A DNA stretch of 53,679 bases, taken from positions 1 to 53,679 of the forward strand of contig JAKLKA010000038.1 in assembly GCA_023150915.1 (NCBI GenBank). Direction: 5' to 3'. The notes below the pieces were generated by a model. The model made no database searches, was not told the origin of the DNA, and saw only the letters and a program-made list of their open reading frames with translations. Source of the stretch: Polyangiaceae bacterium. Lineage in GTDB: Bacteria > Myxococcota_A > Polyangia > Polyangiales > Polyangiaceae. The position numbers and the translations under genes are program-made. Positions 45,487 to 50,091 of this stretch are shown piece by piece (within the stretch, counting starts at the first letter, position 1; each line of letters opens with the position of its first letter).

Positions 45487-45563
45487 TGTCGTTCCATGGG
45501 CGCGGTCATCACGCAGCTCACCCAAAGGAGAAAATTAAAGATCCTTCGTCACAAGATCGGACT

Positions 45564-45714
45564 CGCCAAGCCCCGAAGGGCTCTGGCGTGAGCCGCATGT
45601 CAGTCAACCGCCGCTGAGCAGCGGCATGGCCCCCACGCGGGGCACCAGGAGGGACTCTGCCACGCTCGTCGTGCAGCGACTGCTGCGCGCGGGCCGGCAG
45701 AGATCCGCCTTTTT
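45564..45714 (+). ncRNA. candidate structured RNA of about 150 nt
   Basis: Four consecutive stems are visible: CGCCA-AGCCC/GGGCT-C-TGGCG with a CGAA tetraloop (45564-45588); CCGCT/AGCGG with loop GAGC (45611-45624), flanked by CATG pairs; GCCCC/GGGGC (45630-45643); and a long stem CTCTGCC/GGCAGAG (45655-45661 with 45696-45702), extended by GGG/TCC and holding GCAGC/GCTGC inside. It ends in TTTTT (45710-45714) directly before the linear tRNA-like element. I do not recognise a known RNA family. It could be a separate small RNA with its own terminator or the 5' part of a longer transcript. Confidence 0.45.
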
Positions 45715-45785
45715 GGGGCGATCGTCCAACAGCAGGGCGTCGGCGCTCAGTGCCGAAGATCCGGGTGCAAGTCCCGGTCGTCTCC
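45715..45785 (+). ncRNA. linear tRNA-like element lacking conserved loop bases
   Basis: All four tRNA helices form with standard lengths: acceptor GGGGCGA/TCGTCTC (7 bp, two G-U), D stem GTCC/GGGC, anticodon stem TCGGC/GCCGA, T stem CCGGG/CCCGG, with variable loop AGAT and position 73 C. The loops are not those of a translating tRNA. The D loop AACAGCA lacks the G18-G19 pair, the T loop TGCAAGT has G where U55 is expected, and the anticodon loop GCTCAGT has C in place of U33. The formal anticodon would be UCA. The paired loss of G18-G19 and U55, which contact each other, suggests a mimic or a decayed tRNA. Confidence 0.6.
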
Positions 45786-45899
45786 ACCGGTCTTTCGGCC
45801 TACGGCGCACGTCCGCGCGCTCGGAACCGTTTCGGTCTTCCGTTCGCGTTCGGCTCGTCGCGTTCCGCGAAATACCGACCCGGGTCACCCGACCCGAAC

Positions 45900-45970
45900 G
45901 CTGAAAGTCGCGGGTTCGACTCCCGTGGAGTGCCCACCGGCGCTTCTAGCTCAGTGGTCAGAGCATCAGC
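45900..45970 (+). tRNA. circularly permuted tRNA or tRNA-like module
   Basis: Read in order, this is the 3' half of a tRNA followed by the 5' half: GCTGA (positions 39-43), AAGTC (44-48), T arm GCGGG-TTCGACT-CCCGT, GGAGTGC (66-72), C73, CACC, G-1, GCGCTTC (1-7), TA (8-9), D arm GCTC-AGTGGTCA-GAGC, A26, TCAGC (27-31). The two ends pair: acceptor 7 of 7 (two wobbles), anticodon stem 5 of 5. U8, A14, G15-C48, G18-G19, T54, U55, C56 and A58 are all canonical. G-1 opposite C73 is the histidine-tRNA signature. The anticodon loop is open and no anticodon can be read. Outward, GACCC (45891-45895) pairs with GGGTC (45982-45986). Confidence 0.65.
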
Positions 45971-46372
45971 CGACCTCGAAAGGGTCCGACAGCCAGAGAG
46001 AGAAGAGAAGAGATCACGGCGGGGGCAGCTCGTCGACTTCGCCAACGGTGCGCGAGAGCGCACGGCGGCGGACTCGCCCGCGGCCGCGCCATCGAACCTC
46101 GCGTCCAATGCCGGCCTCGAGCCATCGTCCTCGGTGACGGCCGCTCGAGCTCCGCACGGAACGCGCTTCGACGGCGCGCGTGGCGGGCGAGCGCCCCTCG
46201 AGGGCGCTGCACGACCGAGCTCGGGGTCGCCTGGACGGACCCCGGCGCGAGGTCGCCCACCCCCCTCGACTCGAAGGCGGTCTTCGCCGTGATCGATTCC
46301 CCACACAGCGTCCTTGCGACCTTCGCGGTCGCCCGCGCGCCGGCGGTTCCGGCAGAAAGAGGCCCCAGAGCC

Positions 46373-47512
46373 ATGTTCAAGATCATCCACGTTCGTCTCG
46401 AAGAGCGCGCCGTCGTGCTGCGCGGCGGCCTGCCGGTCCGCGCCTTGGGCCCGGGCCGCCACTTGGTTTTCGGTTTTCACCTGTCGACGCTGTCGTGGAA
46501 CACCGGCGAGCTCGTGTTCCGCGCGCCGCCGGCAGTGCGCGCCATCTTGCCGCGCGACTGGTTCGGCGAGATCGAGCTCGGTCCGCGCGAGCGCGCCATC
46601 GTGATCGAGGACGGCCGTCCGAAGGTCTTCCTGCGTCCCGGCGTGCATCGCTTCTGGAGCGTCGATCCGTCGGTTCGCGTTCGCCGCTTCGACGTGACCG
46701 AGCCGCTTCCGGCCCTCACCGACGAGCTCCGCGCGCTCATTCCGAAGCACGAAATCGCCGAGGCGGTCGTGCGCGAGAGCGAGCGCGGCCTGTTGTTCGT
46801 CCAGGGCAAGCTGGTGCGCGTGCTCGACCCGGGCCGTCACGCCTTCTGGACCCACCCGGAGGCCGAGGTCAGCGTCGACAAGCTCGACATGCGCGCCGAT
46901 CAAGACGCCATCGTCGGCCAAGAGCTGATGACGCGCGACAAGGTGACGCTGCGCCTCACCCTCACGGTGGAGCACGCCGTCGCCGATCCGATCTTGGCGG
47001 CGACGACCGTCGCCAACGTGAAGAGCGCCGTCTACTTGCTGGTCCAGCTCGCTGCTCGCGACTTCGTCGCGGGTGCGACGCTCGACGAGCTGCTCGAGGG
47101 CCGCGACGCCATGAGCCGCCAGCTGATGGCGGACGTGGCGCCCAAGGCTCTGGCCTTCGGCGTGCGCGTCGAGCGCGTGGGCGTGAAGGACATCGTCCTT
47201 CCGGGCGAGATGAAGACCCTGCTCAACCGCGTGATCGAGGCCGAGAAGGCGGCCGCGGCCAACATCATCCTCCGTCGTGAGGAGGTGCTGGCCACGCGTC
47301 AGCTGGCCAACACCGCGCGCGTGATGGCAGAAAGCCCCATCCTGCTCCGCCTGAAGGAGCTGGACGCGATGAAGGAGATCGCCGAGCGCATCGGCGAGCT
47401 GCGCATCGTGGTTGGCGCCGACAACATGCAGTCGCTCTTGCCGGCCGAGCTCTTGGGTCGCGGGCTCTCCGCGCCCCGGGGCAAGACGGGTGATGGCACC
47501 ACGGTAGAATGA
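46373..47512 (+). CDS. SPFH/slipin-family protein
   Basis: A 379-residue protein. ATG 46373 is preceded by AAAGAGG; the open frame upstream is RNA-like. Three copies of a 23-residue unit lead the protein: ERAVVLRGG...LGPGRHLVF (about 11-33), ERAIVIEDG...LRPGVHRFW (77-99) and ERGLLFVQG...LDPGRHAFW (142-164). A Band-7/SPFH domain follows (about 165-300), then a long helix (EAEKAAAANIILRREEVLAT, then RQLANTARVMAES). There is no strong membrane segment. Slipins of this type recur, as established for bacterial RNA-repair operons, beside the RtcB ligase; none is in the window. The structured RNA block directly upstream fits such a context. Confidence 0.87.
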   Translation: MFKIIHVRLEERAVVLRGGLPVRALGPGRHLVFGFHLSTLSWNTGELVFRAPPAVRAILPRDWFGEIELGPRERAIVIEDGRPKVFLRPGVHRFWSVDPSVRVRRFDVTEPLPALTDELRALIPKHEIAEAVVRESERGLLFVQGKLVRVLDPGRHAFWTHPEAEVSVDKLDMRADQDAIVGQELMTRDKVTLRLTLTVEHAVADPILAATTVANVKSAVYLLVQLAARDFVAGATLDELLEGRDAMSRQLMADVAPKALAFGVRVERVGVKDIVLPGEMKTLLNRVIEAEKAAAANIILRREEVLATRQLANTARVMAESPILLRLKELDAMKEIAERIGELRIVVGADNMQSLLPAELLGRGLSAPRGKTGDGTTVE

Positions 47513-47584: not shown

Positions 47585-48772
47585 TCAGCGCTCGACCTCC
47601 CACGGCCATGCCCCACCCGCCGGGCCGCGCCACACGACCCCATCGCGCTCGTGGGAGTCACGTCGCGCGGTCACCACGCAGCGAGACGCGATGCGCGCGT
47701 CGCCGACGGCGGACGCGACCTGTTTGAAGCCCTTCGGCAATGCCGCCCGCTCCTGGTATTTGACCTCGATCAGGTGCAACCGATCGGCCTCTGGGATCAC
47801 GAAGTCGACCTCGACCCCCGCGTGATCCCGGTAGAAGTGGATGCGCGGCCGGGCGCCGCGGTTGGTGAACGACTTGACCAGCTCGGCGTGAACCAGGTTC
47901 TCGAACACGGCGCCACGCAGCGAAGTTTTCGCCAGCGCTCGCTGGGACTCGATGGACAAGAGCGCGCACAAGAGCCCCGTGTCGAGGAAGTACACCTTCG
48001 GCGACTTGACCAGCCGCTTGCCGATGTTCTCGAACCACGGGGGCGTCAGCAGAAGGACGCCAGACGCCTCGAGGACGCCGAGCCACGCCTTGGCCGTGTT
48101 CACGCTGATCCCCGTGTCGGAGGCCAGCGCACCGATCTCCAGGAGCGAACCAGCGCGCACGGCGAGCAGCCGTAAGAAGCGCTCGAAGTCGCGCAAGTTC
48201 CTCACCGCCAACAGCGACCGCACGTCGCGTTCCAGGTAGGTTGCGATGAGACTCGCATGGAACTCGGCGGCGTCGAGATCACGAGCGTGGAGCTCCGGGA
48301 ACGCGCCTTGCCACATCCACTCGAGCAGACGGTCGCCCTCGGCGCGCTGCCCGCGCGCGGCTTCGATCTCAGCCAGGGACAACGGCGAGAGCTCCAGGAT
48401 GGCCGCTCGCCCGGCCAGGCTCTCCGTGACGCCCTTCATGAGAACGAAGCGCTGCGACCCCGTCAGCAGGTAGGCTCCTGAACGATCGCGCGTGCGGTCG
48501 ATCGCGACCTTCAAGTTCCGGAACAGCGCTGGCGCGTACTGCACTTCGTCGATCACGCACGGCGCCGGATGCTGCTCCAGGAAGCGCTGCCCGGAACCCT
48601 CGGCTTGTTCAGCGACCGACGGCAGGTCCAGGGTCACGTAGGTCGCGTGCGGCAGGACCGAACGCGCCAGCCACGTCTTGCCCGTCTGGCGGCAGCCCGT
48701 GAGCACGACGCAGGGGCGCTGCGCCAGCAGGCGGCGCAGGACTGGCTCGATTTCTCGGGAGATCCCCGTCAC
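47585..48772 (-). CDS. DUF4143 AAA-type ATPase
   Basis: A 395-residue ATPase. Walker A GCRQTGKTWL is near residue 27, Walker B is CVIDEVQYAP, then LLTGSQRF (sensor). The C-terminal DUF4143 part includes KVYFLDTGLLCALL and HAGVEVDFVIPEADRLHLIE, similar to a nuclease-like fold with an E-V-D/E-V-K motif (VEVDFVI...LIEVKYQ). Start: GTG 48772. The nearby ATG 48780 is out of frame and closes after three codons. A promoter-like pair places the transcript start on or next to the GTG, so it may be leaderless. The family is widespread; its role is unknown, and some members have been proposed in toxin-like or defence contexts. Confidence 0.87.
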   Translation of the reverse strand: MTGISREIEPVLRRLLAQRPCVVLTGCRQTGKTWLARSVLPHATYVTLDLPSVAEQAEGSGQRFLEQHPAPCVIDEVQYAPALFRNLKVAIDRTRDRSGAYLLTGSQRFVLMKGVTESLAGRAAILELSPLSLAEIEAARGQRAEGDRLLEWMWQGAFPELHARDLDAAEFHASLIATYLERDVRSLLAVRNLRDFERFLRLLAVRAGSLLEIGALASDTGISVNTAKAWLGVLEASGVLLLTPPWFENIGKRLVKSPKVYFLDTGLLCALLSIESQRALAKTSLRGAVFENLVHAELVKSFTNRGARPRIHFYRDHAGVEVDFVIPEADRLHLIEVKYQERAALPKGFKQVASAVGDARIASRCVVTARRDSHERDGVVWRGPAGGAWPWEVER

Positions 48773-48802
48773 CAAGCCATGTTAGTGCTACTGATGAAAA
48801 AT

Positions 48803-48819: not shown

Positions 48820-48927
48820 CATGGGCAGTGGCGCTGACTGGCCCTCGCTTCCGCCCTCGTCTCCTCAGTGATCGGACTCCAGTGCCGGCGCTAGCTCGCG
48901 GGCAGAATACGCGGTATATTGCCCACG

Positions 48928-50091
48928 ATGTATCCGAGGCGCCTCGCGAAGCTGCTCGGCCGAGGGACGAAGTCGTTCCTCCTGCTCGGCCCGCGCCAGG
49001 TGGGAAAGTCCACGTTGGTCCGCCAGCTCGCGCCGGCGCTGTCCATCAATCTGGCGAACGAGCAGGAGTTCCTGGCCCACGCGTCCGACCCCGGCCTGCT
49101 CGAACAGCGCCTCGCTTCGGCCAGGCCCAAGACCGTGTTCATCGACGAGGTGCAACGACTGCCACGGACGTTGAACACCATTCAGAGCATCCTCGACGAC
49201 CGGCCTCGCCCGCCCAGGTTCTTCCTGACCGGCTCGAGCGCGCGCAAGCTGCGACGGGGCCGCGCGAATCTGCTGCCGGGTCGGGTGAACACGTACAGCC
49301 TGGGGCCGCTCACGCTGAGCGAGATCGGCGATGACTTCGACGAACAGCGGCTGTTTGCCACCGGCGCGTTGCCGGGCGTGTACGCAACACGCGTGGAGCT
49401 CGAGCGGAAGAAGACCTTGCGTTCGTACGTGTCGAGTTACTTGAGGGAGGAAGTCCAAGCCGAGGCCCTGACGCGGAACGTGGAAGGCTTTGCTCGCTTT
49501 CTGCGCGTCGCGGCCGTCGACTCGGGGCACTTCCTGGACCAGAACCGGCTCGCGAGGGAAGCCGCAGTTCCGCGCGCGACCGTCCAGCGCTTCTTCGAGA
49601 TCTTGGAGGACACCCTGCTGGCCCATCGTTTCGACGCCTTCGCCAAGAGCGAGCGGCGGCGCTTGGTGCAGCACCCGCGTTACTTCTTCTTCGACGTCGG
49701 CGTCTACAACGCGCTCGTGGGCAACTTCCGGGTGTCCGGGGATCGCGCCGGGATGGTCTTCGAGCACCTGATCGCGTCACAAGTCATTGCCATGGCTCAA
49801 GCCTCGGACGTCGAGGTTCGAGTGAGCTCGTATCGTACCGAGCACGGAGCCGAGGTCGACTTCATCGTCGAGGTGGGGGGTGAGACCTGGGCCATCGAAG
49901 CCAAGGCATCGCGGCAGGTGGGCGCCGGAGACGTCTCGGGGCTCACCAGCTTCGCGAGCTACTTCGGACCCAAGCACCGCAGCGTGATTTTGTACTTGGG
50001 CACCCACGCGAGGAAGATCGGGGGCGTGGACGTGCTGCCGTATCGGAGGGGCCTCGCCGAGCTAGAGCAGGTCCTCGCGCGCTCCCACTAA
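48928..50091 (+). CDS. DUF4143 AAA-type ATPase (second, divergent)
   Basis: A 387-residue ATPase starting MYPRRLAKLLG. Walker A is GPRQVGKST, Walker B TVFIDEVQRLP, then FLTGSSARKL, and the C-terminal DUF4143 region contains YFFFDVGVYNALVG and HGAEVDFIVEVGGETWAIEAK with the E-V-D...E-A-K nuclease-like motif. The upstream TATATT (48915-48920) lies seven to eight bases before the ATG, so the transcript may start at the ATG itself. It is divergent from a second member of the family, though sequence similarity between the two is modest by eye. The ATG is preferred over TTG 48919 because the latter lies within the -10-like element. Confidence 0.87.
   Translation: MYPRRLAKLLGRGTKSFLLLGPRQVGKSTLVRQLAPALSINLANEQEFLAHASDPGLLEQRLASARPKTVFIDEVQRLPRTLNTIQSILDDRPRPPRFFLTGSSARKLRRGRANLLPGRVNTYSLGPLTLSEIGDDFDEQRLFATGALPGVYATRVELERKKTLRSYVSSYLREEVQAEALTRNVEGFARFLRVAAVDSGHFLDQNRLAREAAVPRATVQRFFEILEDTLLAHRFDAFAKSERRRLVQHPRYFFFDVGVYNALVGNFRVSGDRAGMVFEHLIASQVIAMAQASDVEVRVSSYRTEHGAEVDFIVEVGGETWAIEAKASRQVGAGDVSGLTSFASYFGPKHRSVILYLGTHARKIGGVDVLPYRRGLAELEQVLARSH

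Follow-up and report, generated by a model that had tools for sequence, protein, structure and literature searches.

What kind of RNA is encoded where both halves of a bacterial tRNA body are present but stand in the reverse of their usual order? The question is raised by positions 45900 to 45970 of a contig from a Polyangiaceae bacterium, which was analyzed over a whole stretch of 53,679 nucleotides (the window). The segment, hereafter the module, comprises a complete tRNA body whose T arm comes first, followed by the capped acceptor stem and then the D arm. Its parts, read from the sequence directly, are listed here together with a hairpin on the 5′ side.

45881 to 45896, plus strand: hairpin 5′ of the module, CGGGTC-ACCC-GACCCG (GGGCC-ATCT-GGCCC in the sister genome G002, a compensatory change between the two genomes compared)
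45900 to 45904, plus strand: 5′ strand of the lower helix H1, tRNA positions 39-43, GCTGA
45905 to 45909, plus strand: variable region, tRNA positions 44-48, AAGTC
45910 to 45926, plus strand: T arm, GCGGG-TTCGACT-CCCGT
45927 to 45933, plus strand: 3′ strand of the acceptor stem, tRNA positions 66-72, GGAGTGC
45934, plus strand: C73, the end of the 3′ tRNA half (45905 to 45934)
45935 to 45938, plus strand: acceptor-stem cap CACC (AGGA in G002)
45939, plus strand: G-1, the start of the 5′ tRNA half (45939 to 45970)
45940 to 45946, plus strand: 5′ strand of the acceptor stem, tRNA positions 1-7, GCGCTTC
45947 to 45948, plus strand: U8 and A9
45949 to 45964, plus strand: D arm
45965, plus strand: A26
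45966 to 45970, plus strand: 3′ strand of H1, tRNA positions 27-31, TCAGC

The initial annotation of this locus had described a 3′ tRNA half, then CACC, then a 5′ half pairing with the first, and this is borne out: the halves pair at 7 of 7 acceptor positions (8 when G-1:C73 is counted) and at 5 of 5 positions of H1. The conserved tertiary bases which it had claimed are likewise found in the sequence, namely, U8, A9, A14, G15, G18, G19, C48, and the TTCGA of the T loop. There is no CCA at positions 74-76, positions 73-76 reading CCAC; CCA could nevertheless be added to the module, since an encoded CCA is also absent from most of the 30 tRNAs that we looked at in the window's genome.

A chance origin of the module is ruled out, since a strict layout scan of the window returned this single site with 21 of 21 pairs, whereas 60 dinucleotide shuffles of the window, scanned on both strands, gave 19 matches with at most 19 pairs. 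ARAGORN called neither a tRNA nor a tmRNA in the window, and Rfam called no tmRNA. The best non-tRNA Rfam match at the module was the Y RNA family YrlA, which aligned to 45902 to 45968 with 27.2 bits against a gathering score of 69 and through model positions 23-85 alone. The other Rfam candidates between 45400 and 46400 (L2 leader, P9, tRNA-Sec, and plastid ycf2) were all far under their own cutoffs and were discarded. Free folding of the region includes the module as drawn, with an energy moderately below that of shuffled sequences (z = −1.9; 6 of 200 shuffles were equally good). The expectation that the anticodon stem continues into a larger RNA did not hold in the predicted fold, where H1 is not extended into a longer stem and separate hairpins are drawn instead, of which one resembling an anticodon arm follows the module; in the predicted fold of G002, an outer pairing is drawn.

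When 97 related genomes were searched with the DNA of positions 45700 to 46010, the sister genome G002 matched most of this segment (82%), and its module has TCTGA/TCAGA in H1 where the window has GCTGA/TCAGC. A conserved neighbor of the module is a gene downstream of it.

46373 to 47512, plus strand: slipin-type SPFH/Band-7 protein of 379 amino acids (Pfam Band_7, 5.3e-30, with the longer frame from 46289)

This protein matches stomatin structures at 2.6e-24, and the ATG at 46373 was chosen as its start since aligned relatives begin there. GTDB genomes were scanned with the slipin alignment, and the best 80 of 216 loci were kept; 34 of them, with a slipin at least 50% identical, form together with the window a close set of 35 loci, while the distant set comprises 46. 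A relaxed module scan, covering up to 1 kb upstream and with a maximum score of 23, detected the module in 29 of the 35 close-slipin loci at a score of at least 19 (opposite strand: 6/35, scores 19 to 20) and in 21 of 35 at a score of at least 21 (opposite strand: 0/35). The same order, which the initial annotation had proposed to look for in related genomes, is thus found both in G002 and in most of the close-slipin loci. In the 29 scan-positive loci the module lies 262 to 479 nt upstream of the slipin match; in the window, 318 nt separate it from the start of the match and about 400 nt from the ATG. The loci missed by the scan include L103, with its module about 3.5 kb away, L119, whose module seems by eye to be split by a long insertion in the cap, and L130, where we see by eye the 5′ half alone; caps otherwise range among members from 3 to more than 30 nt. 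As a separate observation, L114 to L121, L119, L123, L127, and L130 have a strongly conserved tail 3′ of the module, composed of CACTGGGCTTGCTCATCCCA, a hairpin, and AAAAAACCTGAGC, in which TGCTCA could pair with a downstream TGAGCA (in L119, TGCACA with TGTGCA), forming a possible pseudoknot.

The pairing between the halves was then weighed across species. A covariance model, R1, was built from five modules picked by the scan for pairing; among them, 98.1% of 105 pair cells are standard, 13 of 21 pairs are changed on both sides, and two-sided cells number 26, against 8.8 in shuffles. Since these five modules were chosen by their pairing, the two tests that follow weigh more. In a pairing-blind test, where members were selected solely from their T and D arms and 19 of the 35 loci gave one, a mean of 6.74 of 7 acceptor pairs was found, against 4.42 with halves exchanged between species (maximum of 5.37 in 1000 exchanges), and a mean of 4.05 of 5 H1 pairs, against 3.00 (maximum of 3.63 in 1000). 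When 21 R1 matches were aligned by fitting them to the model, 95.9% of cells were paired and two-sided change was present in 17 of 21 pairs, with 120 two-sided cells against 31.9 in shuffles (0 of 500 as high); all 12 pairs which join the halves (7/7 in the acceptor stem and 5/5 in H1) are two-sided, and 9 of the 21 members lack pairing at the outermost position of H1. These rows take in L103, L201, and L080, which are not before a slipin, L105 6303, which is beside the gene of the RNA ligase RtcB, and L142, from a distant slipin. R1 also adds L111 (55.6 bits) to the close-slipin loci with a module and, weakly, L156 (23.5 bits) and L110 (26.5 bits, at a contig edge and, by eye, with the 5′ half alone), and it gives many matches 200 to 400 nt upstream of the slipin in the 46 distant loci.

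The model also matches tandem normal tRNAs, such that 183 of 183 genomes have a match at an E value of ≤0.01, and R1 matches overlapping ARAGORN tRNAs were left out of the count (e.g., L076 to L078, L085, L088, and L089). Also left uncounted were the matches L079, L081 to L084, and L091, which lie in tRNA arrays, have no slipin within 1.5 kb, and combine good acceptor pairing with weak or different lower helices. Permuted-looking modules within tRNA arrays, some sharing flanks and with no slipin within 1.5 kb, were seen at L192 (8461-8531), L079, L081, L082, and L091.

These false matches, together with the tRNA arrays which relatives have at the same place, might suggest a functionless remnant of a tRNA array, that is, two broken neighbors or a decayed duplication. 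The initial annotation had itself considered that pairing might be lost in close relatives or that a sister genome might hold two truncated tRNA genes; what we found is pairing kept in the relatives by compensatory changes on both sides, and the same module in G002. Moreover, whereas arrays appear and disappear, the order stays constant across the slipin clade. Two neighboring broken tRNAs are disfavored by the covariation, and we deem a remnant of any kind hardly credible. The module is very probably a slipin-linked permuted tRNA mimic.

The link to the slipin could have a different basis if the module were a cis-acting leader, situated in the 5′ region of the slipin mRNA and controlling how the slipin is expressed, for example, by being bound, cut, or modified by tRNA enzymes, and not acting as a free RNA. 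Module and slipin share the strand and the narrow range of distances given above, and simple consensus scans of the window detected neither a sigma-70-type promoter nor a terminator-like site between the module and the slipin start. However, the module and the tRNAs of the arrays can sit elsewhere, as the distance of about 3.5 kb in L103 illustrates, and no slipin lies within 1.5 kb at 17 of the 30 loci with strong covariance model matches, several of these being tandem-tRNA artifacts. Since an elaborate tRNA body and an anticodon-like loop also exceed the needs of a simple leader, we regard this explanation as fairly unlikely.

The order of the parts is not the same before all slipins. At 19 distant loci, nearly all of Myxococcaceae or Archangiaceae, the sequence is better read as a tRNA-like cloverleaf in normal order, and at L147, from Myxococcus xanthus, this element is called a Leu tRNA by ARAGORN. 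Since the slipins of Myxococcaceae have a normal-order tRNA-like RNA at the same place, the order has changed in evolution. The slipin tree, with 81 rows of which 28 are unlabeled, has one branch (100/100) that separates 34 permuted rows from 19 in normal order, with L142 and L145 falling outside the main permuted clade of this unrooted tree. Normal labels were given to 19 of 24 candidate loci (L162, L172, L174, L175, and L176 were left unlabeled), while permuted labels were given by eye to L119 and L145, from R1 to L111 and L156, and from the distant-locus R1 matches and order comparison to L142. Related bacteria differ, therefore, in the part order of a tRNA-like RNA while its place beside the slipin stays. 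Some further layouts were read by eye. In the betaproteobacterial loci L172, L174, and L176 to L179, an apparent T arm, a D arm, a short anticodon hairpin, and a second T arm stand 5′ of the slipin, which might be a link between normal and permuted order; the layout of a Paenibacillus locus, L167, was also read by eye alone. L132, from a record titled Comamonas sp. KCTC 72670, has a slipin which groups within Myxococcaceae and an upstream tRNA-like element like theirs, and it is probably a mislabeled record or a transfer.

A hairpin overlooked in the initial annotation stands directly 3′ of the module.

45971 to 45987, plus strand: anticodon-arm-like hairpin, CGACC-TCGAAAG-GGTCC (4 bp and a 7-nt loop, from the fold)

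In the window it makes a poor anticodon arm, with 4 bp and a loop, TCGAAAG, without U33. In a search of 28 members, covering 55 nt that begin with the 27-31 strand, all 28 showed a hairpin with a 7-nt loop and a stem of 4 bp or more, against 9.6 expected from shuffled flanks, and 15 showed a Y-U-N-N-N-A loop (Y32, U33, and A37), against 0.3 expected; the other 13 are without such a loop, and several of them (e.g., L109, L122, L125, and L129) have hairpins unlike anticodon arms. Type A, with the hairpin placed after H1, accounts for most of the 15, whereas in L105, L106, L112, and L131 (in this list a Labilithrix record) the hairpin uses the 27-31 strand and stands where an anticodon arm normally would (type B). 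One copy, L072, seems by eye to have two such hairpins.

Type B hairpins are what would be expected of a permuted tRNA gene, in which RtcB would join the ends between anticodon arm and variable loop, RNase P and other nucleases would open the cap, and CCA would be added to give a working tRNA. R-C-C is present at positions 73-75 in 12 of 28 members, and when bodies were rejoined in silico, ARAGORN called 13 of 13 when they were given an invented loop and 11 of 13 when the bases that natively follow were kept, the latter calls including Tyr GTA (L131), Leu CAA (L106), Asn GTT (L112), and Leu TAA (L166). In silico rejoining is weak evidence, though, since the invented loop and the ACCA were supplied by us, and neither the window nor L102 gave a call with native bases. 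The module of the window has no CCA at 74-76, caps are short, and a hairpin placed as in the window, outside the 5-bp helix, would leave an anticodon arm of the wrong length. We know of no bacterial tRNA-splicing endonuclease, which also counts against this explanation, and altogether a permuted tRNA gene is unlikely here, although a minority of relatives, those of type B, may have one. Joining would leave no usable anticodon arm in the window, whereas it may give one in L106, L112, L131, and L166. It is very improbable that, as a family, the slipin-linked RNAs represent true permuted tRNAs, the first in bacteria, with RtcB closing the molecule between anticodon arm and variable loop and RNase P opening the cap. 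Were they so, a real tRNA would arise solely where an active ligase is present, the molecule would report or restore repair capacity, and the betaproteobacterial layouts described above would represent a duplication step between normal and permuted order. According to the accessible text of the relevant reports, the permuted tRNA genes of algae and archaea also have the 3′ half before the 5′ half and a complete body (PMC3978253, PMC3218864); they differ from our module, whose acceptor is closed by a short cap and which gives no sign of maturation, and from most members in that the hairpin of the latter lies outside the paired lower helix. Two-piece permuted tmRNA is likewise described there as a bacterial tRNA-like RNA with permuted gene order (PMC3978253), unlike which the module is not called a tmRNA by the programs used.

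The initial annotation knew of no standard bacterial example of such a permutation. One is already in print, since the tRNA-like RNA of YrlA superposes on tRNA with circular permutation, according to the part of the article accessible to us (PMC11472068). The comparison with Y RNAs made in the initial annotation is supported as to architecture, in that the order is that of YrlA, the cap has 4 nt, and positions 74-76 lack CCA, and unsupported as to membership, given the score, the part of the model matched, and the failure to find Ro60. YrlA (RF02553; PDB 6CU1) shares with the module the T arm, capped acceptor stem, and D arm in permuted order, as well as an RNA-repair setting, with RtcB in some bacteria, as the accessible portions of three articles indicate (PMC7790460, PMC8394870, PMC11472068). 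Could the module be a classical YrlA, binding Ro60 and PNPase? Ro60 is present in 9 of 22 module genomes by Pfam, in 10 of 22 by search with a relative's protein, and in 11 of 22 when both are combined, and in G154 and G147 it shares a contig with the module. YrlA matches of nearly full length are found on the Ro60 contig of G030 (65.9 bits) and beside RtcB in G073 (62.4 bits), in each case besides a weaker slipin-linked module; since both genomes hold the two, a single system seems to employ permuted RNAs of two kinds. However, the YrlA gathering score is reached in none of 23 genomes, and weak matches at a loose limit occur also in 11 of 14 control genomes. No Ro60/TROVE protein was detected in the window's genome (G000, a 98.8% complete draft) with either PF05731 or a relative's Ro60 protein, nor was Ro60 found by these searches in 10 other module genomes. 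The module of the window further lacks the Y stem, both by the extent of the match and by the fold, adjoins a slipin, and has an attached anticodon-like hairpin. YrlA proper, failing the tests of score, basal stem, and Ro60, was rejected for the module of the window, and we consider a classical Y RNA an unlikely explanation overall.

As regards the neighborhood, at least three ARAGORN tRNAs lie within 6 kb upstream in 10 of the 35 close-slipin loci and none in 24, in loci which end at 6 kb or at contig ends; the larger stretches L046, L049, and L052 hold 17, 30, and 23 tRNAs, respectively. RtcB is present in 22 of 23 genomes and lies within the locus in 3 of 35 close-slipin and 12 of 46 distant slipin loci, whereas Ro60 lies within 2 of the 35. 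Neither RtcB nor other repair genes were seen at the window's own locus, and RtcB is on another contig of that genome.

With these findings in mind, we favor the module as a noncoding, uncharged permuted tRNA mimic tied to the slipin and acting as bait and scaffold in RNA repair, an explanation to which, with its mechanism included, we give a probability of about 0.5. The module probably belongs to an RNA-repair system, a role which we infer from the neighbors seen in some relatives and by analogy with YrlA. The RNA would fold into a tRNA elbow and, since its acceptor end is closed, would not normally be charged. The slipin would be a membrane scaffold and would join the RNA in a membrane-bound particle for RNA repair or tRNA surveillance. 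The elbow may hold a tRNA-recognizing partner, as the tRNA-like domain of YrlA holds PNPase according to the accessible part of one report (PMC8394870). The anticodon-like hairpin could be a bait or sensor for anticodon nucleases; YrlA has been proposed as a competitive inhibitor of an anticodon nuclease, Salmonella YrlA itself not being cut, in the accessible text of another (PMC7790460). RtcB would rejoin cut tRNAs, and the tRNA arrays would replace them. The variability of hairpins and caps, the poor hairpin of the window, the uncut Salmonella YrlA, and the low counts of RtcB, Ro60, and tRNA arrays within the close-slipin loci all speak against this bait and scaffold mechanism. The findings connect the slipin of RNA-repair loci, about which little is understood, with one definite RNA whose anticodon-like hairpin can be tested, and R1 lets the family be mapped; should the hairpin be a nuclease bait, the host itself would encode a decoy for conflicts in which tRNA is at stake.

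Burroughs and Aravind reportedly described in 2016 a "novel tRNA-like molecule" as a partner of Band-7 modules in bacterial RNA-repair loci. Our RNA is alike in being tRNA-like, next to a Band-7/SPFH gene, and in an RNA-repair setting, while the permutation, the covariation, the anticodon-like hairpin, and the order change were measured here. The repressor TrcR of Anabaena has both a tRNA array and rtcB under its control, and the same expression table includes a slipin gene (PMC10272220); this stress-induced system is that of a cyanobacterium, and the accessible part of the article does not mention a permuted RNA. Elsewhere, rtcB and a slipin gene were changed together, perhaps by erythromycin, as far as the accessible text indicates (PMC9938897). 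No permuted slipin-linked RNA was found in the literature searched, which covered accessible portions of articles and few subscription papers. As far as that literature shows, what is new is that the slipin-linked RNA is permuted, covaries, carries an attached hairpin, and changes its order between sister groups.

Another tRNA-like element stands upstream of the module, from which it is possibly separate.

45715 to 45785, plus strand: second tRNA-like element, in normal order (Rfam tRNA, 38.8 bits; no ARAGORN call)

Its D loop has A18 G19 and its T loop is TGCAAGT, with G55, an A18/G55 type. In a survey of 326 distinct cloverleaves near slipins, obtained with our own finder from 117 sources, the T loop began with TTC in 268 and with TGC (G55) in 53. 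The TGC cloverleaves had A18 G19 in 52 cases, G18 G19 in none, and an unclear D loop in 1, while those with TTC had A18 G19 in 2, G18 G19 in 249, and an unclear D loop in 17; positions 18 and 55 apparently covary in slipin-near tRNAs. The swapped elbow, A18 G19 with G55 and a T loop of TGCRANY, was seen in the window at 45715 to 45785 and in the arrays of L046, L103, L111, L112, L128, L131, L192, L198, and L208. In the window's genome, each of the best 30 of 43 tRNA matches belongs to the ordinary TTC type, and a literature search with the single spelling "A18-G55" found no paper.

Farther upstream, positions 45538 to 45591 hold a short conserved frame, about KILRHKIGLAKPRRALA plus a stop, after a Shine-Dalgarno-like AAGGAG. 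It reads TTA at the start position in the window, GTG in G002, and TTG in G001, the changes in these two genomes being mostly synonymous, and in G001 the block precedes, by eye, an ornithine-carbamoyltransferase-like gene. Downstream of the slipin, two ATPases lie side by side, which we list as defense candidates.

47585 to 48775, minus strand: AAA_14/DUF4143 ATPase (PADLOC PDC-S01 match)
48919 to 50091, plus strand: AAA_14/DUF4143 ATPase (PADLOC PDC-S01 match)
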